A stretch of 64,000 bases of DNA from Microbulbifer elongatus (GTDB taxonomy: Bacteria > Pseudomonadota > Gammaproteobacteria > Pseudomonadales > Cellvibrionaceae). The position numbers were made by a program, and so were the translations under genes. Positions 25,435 to 34,758 of the stretch are shown here, in pieces. Under the pieces are notes generated by a model that made no database searches, had not been told where the DNA came from, and saw only the letters and a list, made by a program, of their open reading frames with translations. The DNA lies in NCBI RefSeq assembly GCF_021165935.1, contig NZ_CP088953.1, positions 186,001-250,000 of the forward strand, read 5' to 3'. Every line of letters begins with the position of its first letter. Position 1 is the stretch's first letter.

Positions 25435-26592
<1,158 letters not shown>

Positions 26593-26654: not shown

Positions 26655-28080
26655 CGTAATGCTGTTCACTTAAGCGGAGCAGCACGACGATTCACCGGAT
26701 AGCGGGTTTTGCTGATCTTTACCGTCCTCGGCCTAGAAGGCCGAGGACGGTCCTCTAAAAACAGGTTCCCAATCCCCGCCCTAAGCTCCGATAAGCGCGC
26801 TCCAGTCCTTGATAATGGCTGAGCCGCGGCCATGACAATCAGCTGCGCAGCAATATACTGGCATGCGAACTTAAAGCGTATCCTGGCTGGGTTTCCCCCG
26901 TGAGCGACCGCTGCCTGGCTTGCCTCTCGACGTATCACGTTGTACGCCAACAGTAGCCCCCACACTTCCTGATAAACCAGTTCCACGGTCTTGCTACGTA
27001 GGGTGACGGCGTTGTGCTGCATGGAACTTTTGATGTCACGGAAGCCGATTTCGATTTCCCAGCGCTCTTGGTAGAGCTTCGCAACGGCTTTAGTGCCATA
27101 AGTATCTGCCGGTAGCCAGGTAAATACCGTTTTGTTTTTGCCATTATGCTTGTAGCTCACTGCTCGAACTTCCCAGTACTCGGGAAGGGCCGGATTGCGC
27201 TTCCGAGCCTGGGGGGAGACCTTCATTCGCAGTAGTCGATCATTTTTGTTGTAGACCTCCACTGTCTCACTGACCAGGCCTTTGCGCTCGGGGATCAGCC
27301 AGTGGCGTTGCGTGTTCTGATCCGCCCACCGCAGCAAAAGGTCTGCACTCCAAAAACCCTTATCAAACAGGGTTACGGAGGCTTCCGGCACCTGATTCAT
27401 AAACTCATCGGCCAGGCGTATTTCGCTGCGTCGGTAAGGGCTTAGCTCTGCATTCAGAAGTACATGTGAACGTACGTTCATTAGAGCAACCAGGCGCATA
27501 AGAGGGTACGGAGTTTGCCGGTTTGTGCTCGTGTTACCGGAGCCAAAATGATCTCGCAGCTCAGGAGTATCTTGAGTGCGCAACAGCGCGCCATCGACAG
27601 CGAGAACTTGCAATCCTCGCCATTCATCTTCGGGGTAACGCTCATGTCCCCAGTGCACCCCGGTACGTTGAAATAGCCACTGAACGGGGTTAGCACCAAG
27701 ACGCTGTCGCGCCTTTGATACCCCGCTTGGGGCCAACAGGCTATCGTTCGCGAGCCCCTGAGCACAGATATTGAGCCTGCGGGCAACTTCTGAGACCGGT
27801 TCATTCCTGAACAGGGCCATGCCCAGCACGAGCCAGAGTACCTGATCGGCGGGAAGTCGACGGCGGCGAATAGTGGCTTGCGAGGATAACTGCAGAGCGG
27901 AATCCACCCATTCAACGGGAATGTTCTGGGTGAAGGTACTCAGGTCACAGAAGGACTGGAGGGCATCAATATCGAAGAGAGACTGCTGAAGAGACACAAA
28001 AAAATCCGGTTTCCTGATCTGGAAACCGGATTTTCCGGGGCCCCACCTTAGGCTGCAATGCTTAAGTGAACAGCATTACG
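26655..28080 (-). mobile_element. Insertion sequence of the IS4 family
   Basis: The 1426-bp element is bounded by perfect 21-bp inverted repeats starting CGTAATGCTGTTCACTTAAG (26655-26675 and, inverted, 28060-28080). It encodes one transposase on the minus strand. GCATTGCCC abuts the left end and GCACTGCCC the right end if the outermost base pair of the repeats is counted as target; this is a 9-bp imperfect target duplication. The flanks AAAAAAACCGCGC and GCCCGGTCTTTTT look like the two halves of one terminator hairpin, so the element seems to have inserted into the terminator after adhC. A hairpin near the right end (28005-28035) could block read-in transcription. Confidence 0.9.
26666..27997 (-). 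CDS. IS4-family transposase
   Basis: This 443-residue DDE transposase has the diagnostic IS4 C1 signature LYQERWEIEIGFRDIKSSMQ, which fits Y-x2-R-x3-E-x6-K and supplies the catalytic glutamate. The catalytic aspartates are expected in QVLAVDGALL-type and LFDKGFWSADLL segments, both visible. An N-terminal IS4 domain (DALQSFCDLSTFTQNIPVEW) and an all-beta insertion before the C1 region are also present. The start is GTG. The frame is intact from end to end with intact terminal repeats, so the element may still be active. Confidence 0.95.
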   Translation of the reverse strand: MSLQQSLFDIDALQSFCDLSTFTQNIPVEWVDSALQLSSQATIRRRRLPADQVLWLVLGMALFRNEPVSEVARRLNICAQGLANDSLLAPSGVSKARQRLGANPVQWLFQRTGVHWGHERYPEDEWRGLQVLAVDGALLRTQDTPELRDHFGSGNTSTNRQTPYPLMRLVALMNVRSHVLLNAELSPYRRSEIRLADEFMNQVPEASVTLFDKGFWSADLLLRWADQNTQRHWLIPERKGLVSETVEVYNKNDRLLRMKVSPQARKRNPALPEYWEVRAVSYKHNGKNKTVFTWLPADTYGTKAVAKLYQERWEIEIGFRDIKSSMQHNAVTLRSKTVELVYQEVWGLLLAYNVIRREASQAAVAHGGNPARIRFKFACQYIAAQLIVMAAAQPLSRTGARLSELRAGIGNLFLEDRPRPSRPRTVKISKTRYPVNRRAAPLK

Positions 28081-30027: not shown

Positions 30028-30096
30028 TATTTTCCCCTTCCCTAAGAATTAAGCTTCCCGGGGTTCGCAAAAACGCCGATGTCTAACGCTAAGGCG

Positions 30097-30200
30097 CTGA
30101 TACCGGTATCCGTTTGCGAGACCTTCCGCGAGAGGGACCTCGCGGAAGAGCCCCCATGGATGGGTTCACGGCGTGTCTCGCAAACGGATACCGGTAGCAG
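30097..30200 (+). repeat. Structured inverted-repeat element A (between trpD and trpG)
   Basis: The 26-nt outer arms (30097-30122 and 30175-30200, core TACCGGTATCCGTTTGCGAG) pair with one mismatch. Inside are a perfect 10-bp hairpin, CTTCCGCGAG/CTCGCGGAAG with loop AGGGAC, and CCCATGGATGGG (30153-30164). The order of parts matches elements B, C and D, although the stem sequences differ. On the plus strand the loops carry GGA or GGGA. Confidence 0.8.
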
Positions 30201-30240
30201 CACCGCCACCAGCCCATCTATGGAGCACCAACCCAATACC

Positions 30241-30819
30241 TCAAGACTCCAAAAAATTCCGCAACATATCGTGCCCATGCTGGGTCAGAATCGACTCCGG
30301 ATGGAACTGCACCCCTTCGATCGGCAGCTCGCGATGACGAACGCCCATGATCTCGTCGATCTCACCGTCTTCAGTCTCGGTCCAGGCAGTGACTTCCAGA
30401 CAATCCGGCAGACTGCCCTTGTCCACCACCAGCGAGTGATAGCGGGTGGCCTCGAACGGATTGGAGAGACCGTTAAATACACCGAGATTGCTGTGAATAA
30501 TCGGCGAGGTCTTGCCGTGCATCACTTCCCCGGCGCGCACCACGCGACCGCCAAACACCTGGCCAATACTCTGGTGGCCCAGGCAGATGCCGAGAATGGG
30601 CAGCTTGCCCGCATAGGTGCGGATGGTCTCCATGGAGATGCCCGCTTCGTTCGGTGTGCAGGGGCCCGGTGAGATTACGATTTTCTCCGGGTTCAGCTTT
30701 TCAATATCCGCAACGGTAATTTCATCATTGCGCTTGACCACAACCTCCGCCCCCAACTCCGCCAGGTACTGCACGATGTTGAAGGTGAAGGAGTCGTAGT
30801 TGTCGATCATCAGGATCAT
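30241..30819 (-). CDS. trpG: Anthranilate synthase component II (glutamine amidotransferase)
   Basis: The 192-residue class I amidotransferase has [16 protein letters not shown], the oxyanion strand [13 protein letters not shown], the catalytic cysteine in [13 protein letters not shown] and the His-Glu pair in [13 protein letters not shown]. It hydrolyses glutamine and delivers ammonia to TrpE; the same subunit may also serve p-aminobenzoate synthesis. Its ATG overlaps the stop of the ion-channel gene by 4 nt (ATGA type), so translation is coupled to that gene rather than to trpE. Element A lies between its stop and trpD. Confidence 0.98.
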
Positions 30820-31673
30820 GGTTCGCTTCCTTTCTCATCTCCCAGGTCACCCAGGCGCTTCTGCAGCCGGGCGAGTGACTCCTGGGTTGCGCGGAGCTCG
30901 CGCAGAATTTCGGTTTGGCTGGGGGGCATGGCCAGTTCGTCCAGGCGACGCAGCTTGGCTTCTTCCAGATTATTCAGCACCACCCCGATAAACAGGTTGA
31001 TCATCACAAACGCACCCATCACCACAAAGCTCAGGAAATAAATCCAGCTGTACGGCATGGATTCCATCGCGGTGTACATGATGTCGGTCCAGTCCTCAAA
31101 GGTGACAATGCGGAACAGGCTCAACAGGGCGATGGGCAGATTGCGCCAGTGGGTGGGGTCGATTTCGTGAAACAGGAAGTAACCGGCCACCCCGTAAATA
31201 TAAAAAATGATTCCCATCAGCAGGCTGATATGGAACATGCTCGGCAGACTGCGCAGCAGGGTGTCTACCAGCAGGCGCAGCTCCGGGAACGCGGACACAA
31301 GGCGCAATACCCGCAGCACCCGCACCAGGCGCGCCAGTGTGGCCATGGGCCCCGCTGCCGGGATCAGGCTCAGCACGATGATGGAGAAATCAAACACGTT
31401 CCAGCCATTGGCAAAATAGCGCCAGGGGCGATTGCCGTGGGCGGCCATCTTGATGGCCGCCTCCAGCATAAACGCACCCAGGATCAGCTGGTTAATGCCG
31501 TGCAGGGTGCTGCTGAAACGCTCCAATACCCAGGTGGAGGTTTCCAGCCCCACCACCACGGCGTTCACCGAGATCAGGGCGATAATCACCTGATTGAAAA
31601 TCGGTGTATCGACCAGCCGGCGACACTGTTCAGCAAAACTACGCTTCTGCCCTACTGAAATTTCACTATTCAT
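30816..31673 (-). CDS. Voltage-gated sodium-channel-like ion transporter (BacNav type)
   Basis: The roughly 285-residue protein has six membrane segments in one repeat, as in bacterial sodium channels. The S4 voltage sensor shows regularly spaced arginines ([14 protein letters not shown]). The pore helix and filter are [15 protein letters not shown] with Glu193, comparable to the TLESW filter of NaChBac. S6 is [22 protein letters not shown]-terminal coiled coil ([20 protein letters not shown]) fits the tetramer bundle of this family. It should sit in the inner membrane as a homotetramer. The ATG at 31673 is assumed; a TTG at 31691 is possible. It lies 36 nt after trpE and overlaps trpG, so it is locked into the trp transcript. 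Confidence 0.9.
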
Positions 31674-31709
31674 CGGTTCAACTGCTTCCAATGGATCAAG
31701 AAAAATAAG

Positions 31710-33191
31710 TTATTGCCCGGTGGCGATGGCCACGGCGCGGAACAGTGCCCGCGCCTTGTTCATGGTCTCGTCCCATTCGGATTGCGGATCGGAATCCGCG
31801 ACCAGGCCGGCGCCGGCCTGCACATACACTTTTTCGTCCTTGATCACCGCGGTGCGAATCGCGATGGCGGTATCCATGTTGCCGTTCCACGCCAGGTAGC
31901 CCACGGCACCGCCGTAGACACCGCGTTTTTCCGGTTCCAGTTCGTCAATAATTTCCATGGCGCGAATCTTGGGCGCGCCGGACAGGGTGCCTGCCGGATG
32001 GGCCGCACGCAGGGCATCAATGGCGTGCAGCTCCGGTTTAATCTTGCCGGTCACATTGGAGACGATGTGCATCACGTGGGAGTACCGCTCCACCACCATT
32101 TTTTCCGTGACCTGCACGGTGCCGGTCTGAGCGACGCGGCCCACATCGTTGCGGCCGAGGTCGATCAGCATCAGGTGCTCGGCGATCTCTTTCGGGTCCG
32201 CCAGCAGGTCTTGCTCCAGCGCCAGATCCTGCGCTTCGGTGGCGCCGCGGCGGCGGGTACCGGCGATCGGGCGCACGGTCATATCGCCGTCTTCCAGGTG
32301 CACCAGGATCTCCGGGCTGGAACCCACCACCTGGTGGTCCCCCAGATCGAGGAAGTACATATATGGAGACGGATTCAGGCTGCGCAAGGCGCGGTACAGA
32401 TTGAGCGGTGGTACGGTAAACGGCGCGGACAGGCGCTGGGACGGCACTACCTGCATCACGTCGCCGGCGAGGATGTAATCCTTGACCTTGTGTACGCCCT
32501 GTTTGAAGGCATCTTCGCCGAAATGGGAGGTAAAGGTGTCCTCGGCGGTGTGATCGCCGTCGATACCGAGGGGTTCGACGCTGTCGAGCGGCTGCGACAG
32601 CTGACCCACCAGCTCGTCTAGGCGGCGCTGGGCGGTTTCAAAGGCATCCCCCTGCTCCGGATCGGCGTGCACGATAAACAGCACGGCACCGGCGAGGTTG
32701 TCGAACACCACCAGCTCGTCGCTGACCATCAGCAGGATATCCGGGTTACCGAGGGTATCCGGCGGGCAGCTGTCGGCGAGTTTGGGCTCGATATAGCGCA
32801 CGACGTCGTAGCCGAAGTACCCCACCAGTCCGCCGTTGAAGCGCGGCAGGCCGTCTATCTCCGGCACTTTATAGCGTCCGCGGAACTCCTCGACGAAGGC
32901 CAGAGGGTCTTCAACGGTGTGCTGCTCGACGATTTTTCCGTCGCGCTCGACCACAACATCGTACCCGGTCACTTTCAGTACGGTGCGGGCGGGCAGGCCG
33001 ATAATGGAGTAGCGCCCCCACTTTTCCCCGCCCTGCACGGACTCCAGCAGGTAGCTGTAGCGACCGCCATCGCGGGCGGCGAGCTTCATGTAGGTGGTGA
33101 GTGGGGTCTCTATGTCTGCCAGTACGCGGCGGACCAGAGGTATGCGGTTAAATCCTTTAGACGCAAGTTGGGCGTATTCGCTGGGGGTCAT
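31710..33191 (-). CDS. trpE: Anthranilate synthase component I
   Basis: The 493-residue protein has the N-terminal feedback site region ([20 protein letters not shown], a LLES-type tryptophan-binding motif) and the chorismate-binding C-terminal domain: [70 protein letters not shown] and [10 protein letters not shown]. It converts chorismate to anthranilate with ammonia from TrpG. I searched the upstream region for a leader peptide with consecutive Trp codons and did not see one. In Pseudomonas, gph and rpe lie just upstream; here gph is absent and two structured repeats occupy the gap. The downstream gene encodes an ion channel instead of trpG. Confidence 0.98.
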
Positions 33192-33500
33192 GGCGACTCC
33201 GGTGTATGCAATGCGTTGAGTTTTGTATTCGGGTCTGGATTGCGCATGAGTTGTGAAATCCTACCCGTGAGAGAGGCGCCCGTCGGACCAGTTCCTGGTC
33301 TTCAGGCTTTAAGGATCAGTGGCGCCATCGCCAGCTGTTGATGTGGGGGGCAGTGCAGTTCAATGTCAGAATCTCGCAGCGTCGAGTTGCTTCCCTGTAT
33401 TCCGGCGAGCAAGTGTACAAATCTCTGGTAGAGGCGGCAAGCTTGGGATTTTGTGGTTCTTTCGGTGGTTCGTCAGGCTCTTTTCACTTTCAGTGGCGCC

Positions 33501-33605
33501 GAGGCACCGGGTAGGGCTTTTCGGAATCGCTGTGAATACATCCCTGTACGCTCCGGCGGCGACGTCCTGTCGCCGACGGTTCCGAAAAGCCCTACCCGGC
33601 ACCTC
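33501..33605 (-). repeat. Structured inverted-repeat element B
   Basis: The 26-nt arms (33501-33526, 33580-33605; CACCGGGTAGGGCTTTTCGG) pair except at two adjacent positions. The 53-nt core carries two hairpins: TACA-TCCC-TGTA and CGGCGAC-GTCCT-GTCGCCG. On the minus strand the first hairpin reads GTACAGGGATGTA and the second has AGGAC in its loop. Part order and spacing equal those of element D, while stems differ by compensating changes. Confidence 0.85.
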
Positions 33606-33690
33606 AGCTTAGATTCCGGCTTTCATATTCTGCAATAAGTCGGCTGTACGCCCCTCTTCGCTGCTACAAGGCAACGAAATACAAATCGAA

Positions 33691-33881
33691 GCTGGAGTGC
33701 CGGGTAAGGGTTTTTGAAAGCGTCGCAAACAGGATGTTTGCGCCGCAGCGTTTAGGGGTTAGACAAGCGTTTGCGAAGCATTGCTTCGCGCGCAGTCTAA
33801 CGACACCAATCTATGATTGGTGGCCGGCCCCGCTCGCGGGGGTTCACAGCGGTTTCAAAAACCCTTACCCGGTGCTCCAGC
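33691..33881 (+). repeat. Structured inverted-repeat element C, expanded
   Basis: The 29-nt arms (33691-33719 and 33853-33881; GGGTAAGGGTTTTTGAAA) pair except at the same two positions as in B and D. Within lie GCAAAC-AGGAT-GTTTGC (33725-33741), GTTAGAC/GTCTAAC (33758-33764, 33795-33801) enclosing GCGAAGC-ATT-GCTTCGC, then CACCAAT/ATTGGTG (33804-33822) and CCCCGC/GCGGGG (33828-33841). It is the B/D layout in the opposite orientation, with about 80 extra bp of nested hairpins. Confidence 0.85.
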
Positions 33882-33914
33882 GCCACAGCGGGTATTCAGG
33901 GCACCTGACCCAAC

Positions 33915-34583
33915 TCAGGCCTGCGCCAACTCTGAACGCATCACCTTGATCACTTCCGCATAGTCATCCGCGTTGAAGATGGCGGAGCCGGCGACGAAGC
34001 TATCGGCGCCGGCCTGGGCGATTTCGCGGATGTTGTCTTTGGTGACACCGCCGTCGATCTCGAGGCGGATATCGAGGCCGGAGTCGTCGATGAGTTTGCG
34101 GGCTTCCTTCAGTTTGCCGAGGGTGGCGGGAATAAATTTCTGGCCGCCGAAGCCGGGGTTGACGGACATGAGGAGGATCATGTCGAGTTTATCGAGTACG
34201 TATTTGGCGGCGTCGAGGCTGGAGGCGGGGTTGAATACGAGGCCGGCCTTACAGCCCAGGGACTGGATCAGTTGCAGGGAGCGGTCGACGTGTTTACTGG
34301 CTTCCGGGTGGAAGGTGATGTAGGTGGCGCCGGCGTCGGCGAACATGCGGATCATGTCGTCGACGGGTTCGACCATGAGGTGGACGTCGATGGGGGCGGT
34401 GACGCCGTGGTTGCGGAGCGCCTTGCAGACCATGGGGCCGATGGTGAGGTTGGGGACGTAGTGGTTGTCCATTACGTCGAAGTGCACCCAGTCGGCGCCG
34501 GCGGCGAGGACGCTGTCAACTTCTTCACCCAGGCGGGCAAAGTTGGCGGAGAGGATGGAGGGTGCGATTTTGTAGTCTGGCAT
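33915..34583 (-). CDS. rpe: Ribulose-phosphate 3-epimerase
   Basis: This 222-residue TIM-barrel protein has the family signatures [64 protein letters not shown] and [12 protein letters not shown], which together supply the metal-binding His and Asp residues and the phosphate site. It interconverts ribulose 5-phosphate and xylulose 5-phosphate in the pentose-phosphate pathway. The usual downstream partner gph (phosphoglycolate phosphatase) is missing. Structured repeats flank the gene on both sides (B and C downstream, D upstream). Confidence 0.97.
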
Positions 34584-34647
34584 TTTCTCGTCTCGGTGCT
34601 TTGGTTATAGCTCCGGGGTCTTTAGTGTTTTTACGACCGCCGGTAGC

Positions 34648-34758
34648 GGCCGGGCACCGGGTGGAGCTTTTCAGGACCGCGGTGAACCCATCCCTGGGCG
34701 CTTCGGCGCAAACATCCTGTTTGCGACGATCCTGAAAAGCTCCACCCGGCACCCGGCC
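34648..34758 (-). repeat. Structured inverted-repeat element D
   Basis: The 29-nt arms (34648-34676, 34730-34758; CACCGGGTGGAGCTTTTCAG) pair apart from the CA positions also mismatched in B and C. The 53-nt core has CCCA-TCCC-TGGG (34687-34698) and CGCAAAC-ATCCT-GTTTGCG (34707-34725). On the minus strand the loops read AGGGAT and AGGAT. It lies in the 215-bp gap between murU and rpe. Confidence 0.85.

Follow-up and report, generated by a model that had tools for sequence, protein, structure and literature searches.

What are the four structured elements, A to D, that lie in the gaps between the trp, rpe and murU genes of Microbulbifer elongatus? All four fall within a 64-kb window (bases 186001-250000 of the single 4.2-Mb contig), and a sequence-only reading of this window had described them as a four-member family with compensating stem changes that might be either dispersed structured repeats or RNA elements with a regulatory job in this operon. 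Here, we find that they represent a repeat family with at least 144 copies in this genome, one strand of which (hereafter GGA strand) folds into an outer stem (P1) carrying two hairpins (HP2 and HP1) with GGA in their loops. The explanation that we favor, with moderate confidence and on the basis of sequence comparison, is that the elements are copies of a mobile, widespread gammaproteobacterial RNA element of the TwoAYGGAY kind that presents CsrA/RsmA sites.

A large dispersed repeat family

Elements A to D were correctly placed in the trp/rpe/murU gaps, and the covariance model R1, built from 31 copies, returned no further copy in the window (8 rows, corresponding to A to D on both strands). 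Genome-wide, however, the family does not end with four members. A blastn search with element D gave 52 matches in its own genome (G000), and R1 gave 148 rows from the best 150 of 2181 candidates scored, which represents a lower bound. After removal of 3 opposite-strand duplicates and 1 weak row, 144 copies were kept, scattered over the genome as expected for dispersed structured repeats. Their density along the contig differs, with only 3 of the 144 copies located between 2.5 and 3.0 Mb compared to 18-33 per half megabase across 0-2 Mb.

The search of relatives with a covariance model, which the sequence-only reading had suggested, revealed matches at E ≤ 1e-3 in 27 of 38 genomes (own included), namely 24 of 25 within the genus and 3 of 13 from other families of the order. 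In an even draw across the class, 27 of 185 genomes (own included) matched R1 at E ≤ 1e-6 under stricter filters. Within the one genus, the number of matches per genome ranged from 0 to at least 100. Furthermore, an exact 29-nt core pattern was found in at least 120 stretches; among the matches listed, many belong to Microbulbifer, and others to Stenotrophomonas, Xanthomonas, Marinobacter, Oceanisphaera, Rheinheimera, Halopseudomonas, Alcanivorax, Haliea and further genera. In a collection of viral contigs, one 29-nt core pattern had no exact match. In 36 searched records from the pattern set, R1 identified 63 matches, some of them in alternating inverted arrays, and examples drawn from 21 records share the fold despite very different stems, with a few being degenerate or cut. 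A literature search that included core sequences as text, and whose reach excluded most papers in subscription journals, yielded no description of these repeats.

Covarying stems and conserved loops

On the GGA strand, the copies share a plan consisting of a variable P1 of 26-29 bp, HP2 and HP1. Regular expressions were used to divide the 135 copies with at least 60 bits (9 weaker copies were left out) into type I, with GUUUUCAGGA... in the inner part of the outer stem (71 copies), and type II, with UUUGCGAGAC... (64 copies). Type I is characterized by two conserved U-G/G-U wobbles at P1 pairs 8-9 (49 and 53 of 71 copies) and type II by a conserved A-G mismatch at P1 pair 7 (44 of 64). HP2 occurs with 17 different six-base stem sequences and with the loops AGGAU, AGGGAC, AGGGAU, AGGAC, AUGGAU and similar ones, while HP1, as judged by eye, mostly reads CCC-ANGGAU-GGG or UAC-ANGGAY-GUA. 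In 21 of 135 copies, a third hairpin, GGGC-GCCUA-GCCC or a variant thereof, lies between HP1 and P1.

The exchanges within the HP1 and HP2 stems that had been quoted for the four elements are exact, and the compensating changes deduced from them are borne out, far beyond chance, by the 31 copies of the model: 97.4% of stem cells are paired, compared to 84.4% in shuffles and no more than 45.9% in slid controls, and 31 of 41 stem pairs show double changes (12.6 in shuffles). Not all differences between copies are point changes, however; in some cases, the HP2+HP1 cassette has been exchanged en bloc.

The loops are conserved in sequence. Of 135 copies, 128 have an HP2 loop that follows the strict pattern A(N)GGAN; the corresponding strict count for HP1 (93 of 135) is too low, because the script placed the UAC/GUA stem in a different register, and was not used. 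Across the core, at least 2 GGA are present on the GGA strand in 132 of 135 copies, and none on the opposite strand in 100. In other genera, GGA is found in both loops in 58 of 63 aligned rows, with 3 of the 5 misses being opposite-strand rows. Of the proposed selection for structure rather than sequence, the selection for structure is supported, and the strand-dependent pairing and the orthologous sites described below show that it concerns one strand; the contrast with sequence has to be qualified, as the GGA of both loops is itself conserved.

Conservation of one strand

When a transition changes only one side of a base pair, the result reads G-U on one strand but A-C on the opposite one. 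When non-Watson-Crick pairs of the outer stem were read on the GGA strand over the 135 copies, 72 GU were found versus 9 AC (binomial p = 2e-13; columns of fixed non-Watson-Crick pairs omitted), in addition to 72 other mismatches. The bias is present in both types, with a GU:AC ratio of 24:7 in type I and 48:2 in type II. These results identify the GGA strand as the selected strand. Because copying of one arm onto the other at the DNA level is strand-blind, it is excluded as the source of this bias.

Orthologous sites

The same bias was found in situ. Via both flanks, 67 of the 99 copies of a congener, G002, map to G000, while the remaining 32, for which the two flanks could not both be placed, were excluded, as were 11 opposite-strand rows. 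An element is present in 63 of the 67 corresponding gaps, in a sample biased by the choice of G000 pieces that hold elements. Orientation agrees in 35 of 36 gaps in which G000 holds one element; only these gaps are informative, since in two-element gaps the pairing rule forces agreement. Flank identity of the orthologous pairs is 0.50-0.75 and core identity 0.81-0.88, and both species retain the GGA of HP1 in 57 of 62 pairs and that of HP2 in 54 of 62.

Across all 1736 outer-stem cells of the 62 pairs, 1128 are unchanged and paired, 397 doubly changed and paired, 83 singly changed and paired, 79 singly changed and broken, 34 doubly changed and broken, and 15 unchanged and unpaired. Removal of the four conserved nonstandard columns leaves 1488 cells, in which these classes comprise 1000, 376, 36, 52, 21 and 3 cells, respectively. 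Among the pairs of these 1488 cells that differ on one side, 38 are GU, 8 AC and 45 other (p = 9e-6), and at the 34 loci whose 5' arm is at least 75% identical, GU:AC is 21:2 (antisense 5:1, sense 8:0). With the conserved-wobble columns included, the two ratios would be 90:9 and 50:3; leaving these columns out lowers the in-situ excess of GU, keeps its direction, and has no bearing on the 72:9 of the 135 copies.

Element D provides an example at a single site. It lies between murU and rpe in 6 genomes (own included), whose rpe is at least 95% identical, whereas a search with exact arms found none at this site in 23 other genomes. The six versions show compensating changes in P1, HP1 and HP2, and two of them carry the third hairpin. 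More generally, sites with nearly the same P1 often carry a different HP2+HP1 cassette as a block, and these block-wise differences point to gene conversion between copies.

Genomic setting and mobility

Using genes called by a simple codon-usage script rather than a standard gene finder, we assigned the 144 copies to 53 codirectional sense, 48 codirectional antisense, 33 convergent and 5 divergent positions, with 5 copies overlapping a called gene. The 117 occupied gaps comprise 88 codirectional, 24 convergent and 5 divergent ones, compared to 111, 4 and 49 among the 164 empty gaps of at least 100 nt in the same stretches; divergent gaps are therefore avoided (5/117 versus 49/164, Fisher p = 1e-8). 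In codirectional gaps with a single copy, the stop codon and the start of the element are at most 50 nt apart for 23 of 40 sense copies (median 43) and for 27 of 34 antisense copies (median 36). All 28 neighboring pairs less than 700 nt apart are inverted, 19 of them as -+ with gaps of 57-89. Furthermore, the sequence 3' of the element on the GGA strand is A- and C-rich in either orientation, which may mean that the element carries part of its flank along.

Recent mobility in a relative is evident from three units of about 210 nt in genome G072 (L464-L466), which are 97-98% identical, have terminal inverted repeats and lie between unrelated flanks. These units display traits of miniature inverted-repeat transposable elements (MITEs), in that they end in inverted repeats and occur as recent copies at sites unrelated to each other; no clear target-site duplication was seen in them by eye. 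In genome G104, many near-identical elements lie inside repeated units of about 370 nt. The transposase of repetitive extragenic palindromes (RAYT) was rejected as mobilizer, since copy number does not follow its family PF01797: G002, G005, G012 and G021 have 97, 95, 49 and 41 R1 matches, respectively, and no PF01797 (Y1 transposase) match at E ≤ 1e-5. Paralogs of csrA were likewise rejected as carriers, as 20 stretches around csrA (19 from G003, G006, G010 and G014, and 1 from G008) contained no R1 match at E ≤ 1.

Relation to CsrA and to known repeats

The consensus of CsrA ligands obtained by systematic evolution of ligands by exponential enrichment (SELEX) is RUACARGGAUGU, RsmE binds ANGGAN hexaloops, and the repeat of CsrB is CAGGA(U/A/C)G (PMC7652899). 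The copies in G000 match these CsrA/RsmA sites specifically, with paired GGA hairpin loops that mostly have the six-base form ANGGAN or the five-base form AGGAN. The host has one csrA match, which is canonical by sequence, and its CsrA is nearly identical to the 1vpz and 7yr6 chains over residues 1-55. This genome may therefore carry more than 100 ready-made CsrA-binding sites.

Among known RNA families, TwoAYGGAY (RF01731, clan CL00106), for which CsrA binding was predicted earlier (PMC4333381), resembles the repeats most closely: both have two hairpins with AYGGAY-like GGA loops in one outer stem, and several copies can be aligned with the RF01731 model from end to end. The accessible literature on TwoAYGGAY offered no tested function. 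While no Rfam family reached its cut-off in the 64-kb window, at least 4 matches to RF01731 at E ≤ 1 were obtained in the whole genome (54 of 118 candidates scored), the best of which, with 39.8, stays below the gathering cut-off of 43. The cut-off was passed once each in G027 (47.6) and G029 (43.5), which belong to two other families of the order, and in 0 of 17 tested records of other genera. Other Rfam matches near elements scored far below their cut-offs and were dismissed, as they look like chance hairpins. Because of the score in its own genome, we filed the family as TwoAYGGAY-like and not as a member. It is an amplified, mobile variant of this known RNA kind and differs by its at least 144 dispersed copies, its inverted pairs and the third hairpin in 21 of 135 copies, none of which appears in the accessible TwoAYGGAY descriptions.

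The sponges CsrB and RsmX/RsmY/RsmZ likewise consist of repeated GGA hairpin loops with the same sequence. However, these are separate small RNA genes, CsrB having about 18 sites (PMC7652899), whereas here each of many copies has two sites and no promoter signal was found. RsmU of Xanthomonas, described as limited to this genus, derives from a 3' untranslated region and binds RsmA (PMC7694677), and the GGA-loop repeats described here also often lie 3' of genes. With repetitive extragenic palindromes (REP), bacterial interspersed mosaic elements (BIMEs) and RAYT-associated REPINs, the repeats share an extragenic palindromic nature, inverted pairs, alternating arrays and high copy number, but they measure about 110 nt compared to 20-40 bp (PMC3733652), do not correlate with Y1 transposase, and combine conserved RNA-type loops with stems that vary per copy. 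MITE-like units such as ERIC and RU are also short, nonautonomous and dispersed, with terminal inverted repeats as in G072, while conserved twin GGA hairpins and strand-specific pairing distinguish the family described here.

Elements A to D in the trp/rpe/murU region

The coordinates of A to D and their parts are given in Table 1. The operon comprises trpD, trpG, a channel gene, trpE, rpe and murU, each encoded on the - strand; these names were assigned by eye or taken from the sequence-only reading, without a family search. Each of the four folds lies 7.5-12 standard deviations below dinucleotide shuffles. The single plan ascribed to all four holds for the outer stem with two hairpins, except that C, which is about 80 nt longer, carries an extra hairpin within HP1 and retains only HP2 intact. 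Element A has an orthologous copy in G002 at 1698249, and B and C form an inverted pair with 82 nt between them.

Table 1. Elements A to D and their parts in the 64-kb window. Strand refers to the GGA strand; sense and antisense are relative to the operon.
Feature	Position	Strand	Location	Evidence
Element A, type II	30094-30203	+, antisense	trpG-trpD gap	R1 85.0 bits; fold
Element A, HP2 loop AGGGAC	30133-30138	+		sequence, fold
Element A, HP1 CCC-ATGGAT-GGG	30153-30164	+		sequence
Element B, type I	33498-33608	-, sense	trpE-rpe gap	R1 121 bits
Element B, HP1 UAC-AGGGAU-GUA	33537-33548	-		sequence; includes CsrA SELEX core ACARGGAUGU
Element B, HP2 loop CAGGACG	33563-33569	-		sequence
Element C, type I	33691-33881	+, antisense		R1 95.7 bits
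Element C, HP2 loop CAGGATG	33730-33736	+		sequence
Element D, type I	34648-34758	-, sense	murU-rpe gap	R1 131.5 bits; orthologs
Element D, P1 outer stem, 3' arm	34648-34676	-		fold
Element D, P1 outer stem, 5' arm	34730-34758	-		fold
Element D, HP1 CCC-AGGGAU-GGG	34687-34698	-		sequence
Element D, HP2 loop CAGGATG	34713-34719	-		sequence

A hairpin similar to the insert of C (GTTAGRC...GYCTAA around GCGAAGCATYGCTTCGC; window positions 33750-33850) was seen by eye in HP1 of another G000 element, at 3677497, and is perhaps a nested repeat of its own. An attC site was considered for the insert and dropped, as its core boxes are in the wrong order for the attC motif. The B/C pair is absent from the trpE-rpe gap of G001, G002, G008 and G018. 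In G015, this gap (L192) contains a single copy with nearly the variable stem of C in the opposite orientation, possibly an in-place inversion. In G001 and G002 (L191 and L190), it contains a short palindrome, GTGGCGCTCCGGCGCCAC, that by eye resembles the outer ends of the B/C pair and is possibly a deletion scar left by its loss. Finally, a 443-aa open reading frame between trpC and the gene at 25465 (window positions 26666-27997, - strand) looks like a DDE transposase by eye, without a family search.

Discussion

If the repeats are TwoAYGGAY-kind RNA elements, transcripts crossing a copy on the GGA strand, mainly in 3' untranslated or intercistronic regions, would carry a CsrA site: the long P1 stem would display two hairpins with an ANGGAN hexaloop or AGGAN pentaloop, and one CsrA/RsmA dimer could clamp both loops of a single RNA copy. 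Head-to-head inverted pairs would make a site available to transcripts from either side. The more than 100 sites could jointly buffer free CsrA, and individual copies might have local effects on the decay of the mRNA or on coupling with the gene that follows. CsrA binding and any such effect are inferred.

Several observations weigh against this explanation. The main puzzle, and an argument against a simple sponge embedded in mRNA, is the independence of orientation: codirectional gaps with a single element show no orientation bias (40 sense versus 34 antisense, p = 0.56), and antisense copies protect pairing of the GGA strand like sense ones, both over the copies (GU:AC 25:4 antisense, 29:2 sense, 16:3 convergent) and in situ (10:1, 13:4 and 12:3, respectively, with small numbers per class). 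As the mRNA of the antisense genes carries the other strand, and an own sigma70 promoter or intrinsic terminator was rejected for lack of signal in simple scans (promoter scores over 120 nt not above shuffles; T-runs within 20 nt on the GGA strand in 0 of 50 sense, 1 of 46 antisense and 1 of 30 convergent cases), the orientation result is the weak point of a simple sponge model. Moreover, HP2 stems are long and stable, whereas most CsrA SELEX hairpins have at most 4 pairs (PMC7652899). The loops are not invariably kept either; HP1 of element D in G018 reads AGUGAU and has lost its GGA, in 11 of 62 orthologous pairs, one species is without GGA in at least one loop (some perhaps due to hairpin placement by the script), and cassette swapping can keep loops conserved with no selection at the individual site, so that their conservation may have a nonlocal origin. 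Lastly, and contrary to simple titration, congeners with many csrA matches tend to have few elements, a trend confounded by phylogeny: G003, G004, G006, G009, G010 and G014 have 4-18 csrA matches each, with at most 11 elements in five of them and 47 in G006, while congeners with at least 29 elements mostly have one csrA match, and G007, G011 and G019 have few elements without extra csrA.

Either the GGA strands are transcribed by unseen routes, or selection acts on a single strand of DNA or on an intermediate in the spread of the element, and which of these molecules is selected decides between the favored explanation and selfish DNA similar to BIME/REP or MITEs. In the latter case, which we regard as rather unlikely yet as a serious contender, the GGA strand would be the transposed single strand, its hairpins and GGA loops would serve as marks for a DNA-binding transposition protein, and the host would derive no function. 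The independence of gene orientation fits this well, as do the inverted arrangement of all close pairs, the alternating Xanthomonas array (L310), the near-identical units of G072 and G104, and the range of copy number within one genus; single-stranded DNA would tolerate G-T as well. However, the Y1 transposase does not track the repeats, and the protection of P1 pairing in situ, long after insertion, is unexpected for inert DNA. Moreover, we know of nothing in DNA transposition that predicts ANGGAN or AGGAN loops.

Protein-independent RNA structures that guard 3' ends of mRNAs or insulate genes are improbable. Very stable stems, proximity to stop codons and rarity in divergent gaps speak for them, whereas the conservation of GGA in the loops would remain unexplained, hardly any T-run is available for termination, and antisense copies guard the GGA strand instead of the strand that is transcribed in them. 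It is more improbable still that the covariation arose without selection, by template switching from arm to arm at a quasi-palindrome. Transversion-type double Watson-Crick changes, which have no G-U intermediate, do account for 31 of 96 at well-matched orthologous sites and 166 of 382 over all 62 pairs, and template switching may help to homogenize the arms; being strand-blind, it can yield neither the GU:AC ratios of 72:9 or 38:8 nor conserved loops, and the strand asymmetry speaks against it as the sole cause. The regulatory RNA dedicated to the trp/rpe/murU genes that had been suggested has next to no likelihood. Four copies within 4.7 kb and the retention of D beside rpe speak for it, but the genome has elements at 140 further places, oriented either way relative to their neighbors, and the B/C pair is missing in four genomes (with one copy in G015).

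The conservation of one strand independently of gene orientation is an unusual observation in itself. On the favored explanation, a tentative extension is that a mobile element spreads CsrA/RsmA-binding RNA in many gammaproteobacterial lineages, its more than 100 one-strand-maintained copies possibly forming a distributed Csr reservoir, or CsrA possibly serving the life cycle of the element. If CsrA binds the repeats, TwoAYGGAY would gain a concrete, testable role, and the binding capacity of a global regulator would be determined by how many copies of a mobile element a genome carries, a number that ranges from 0 to at least 100 among congeners.

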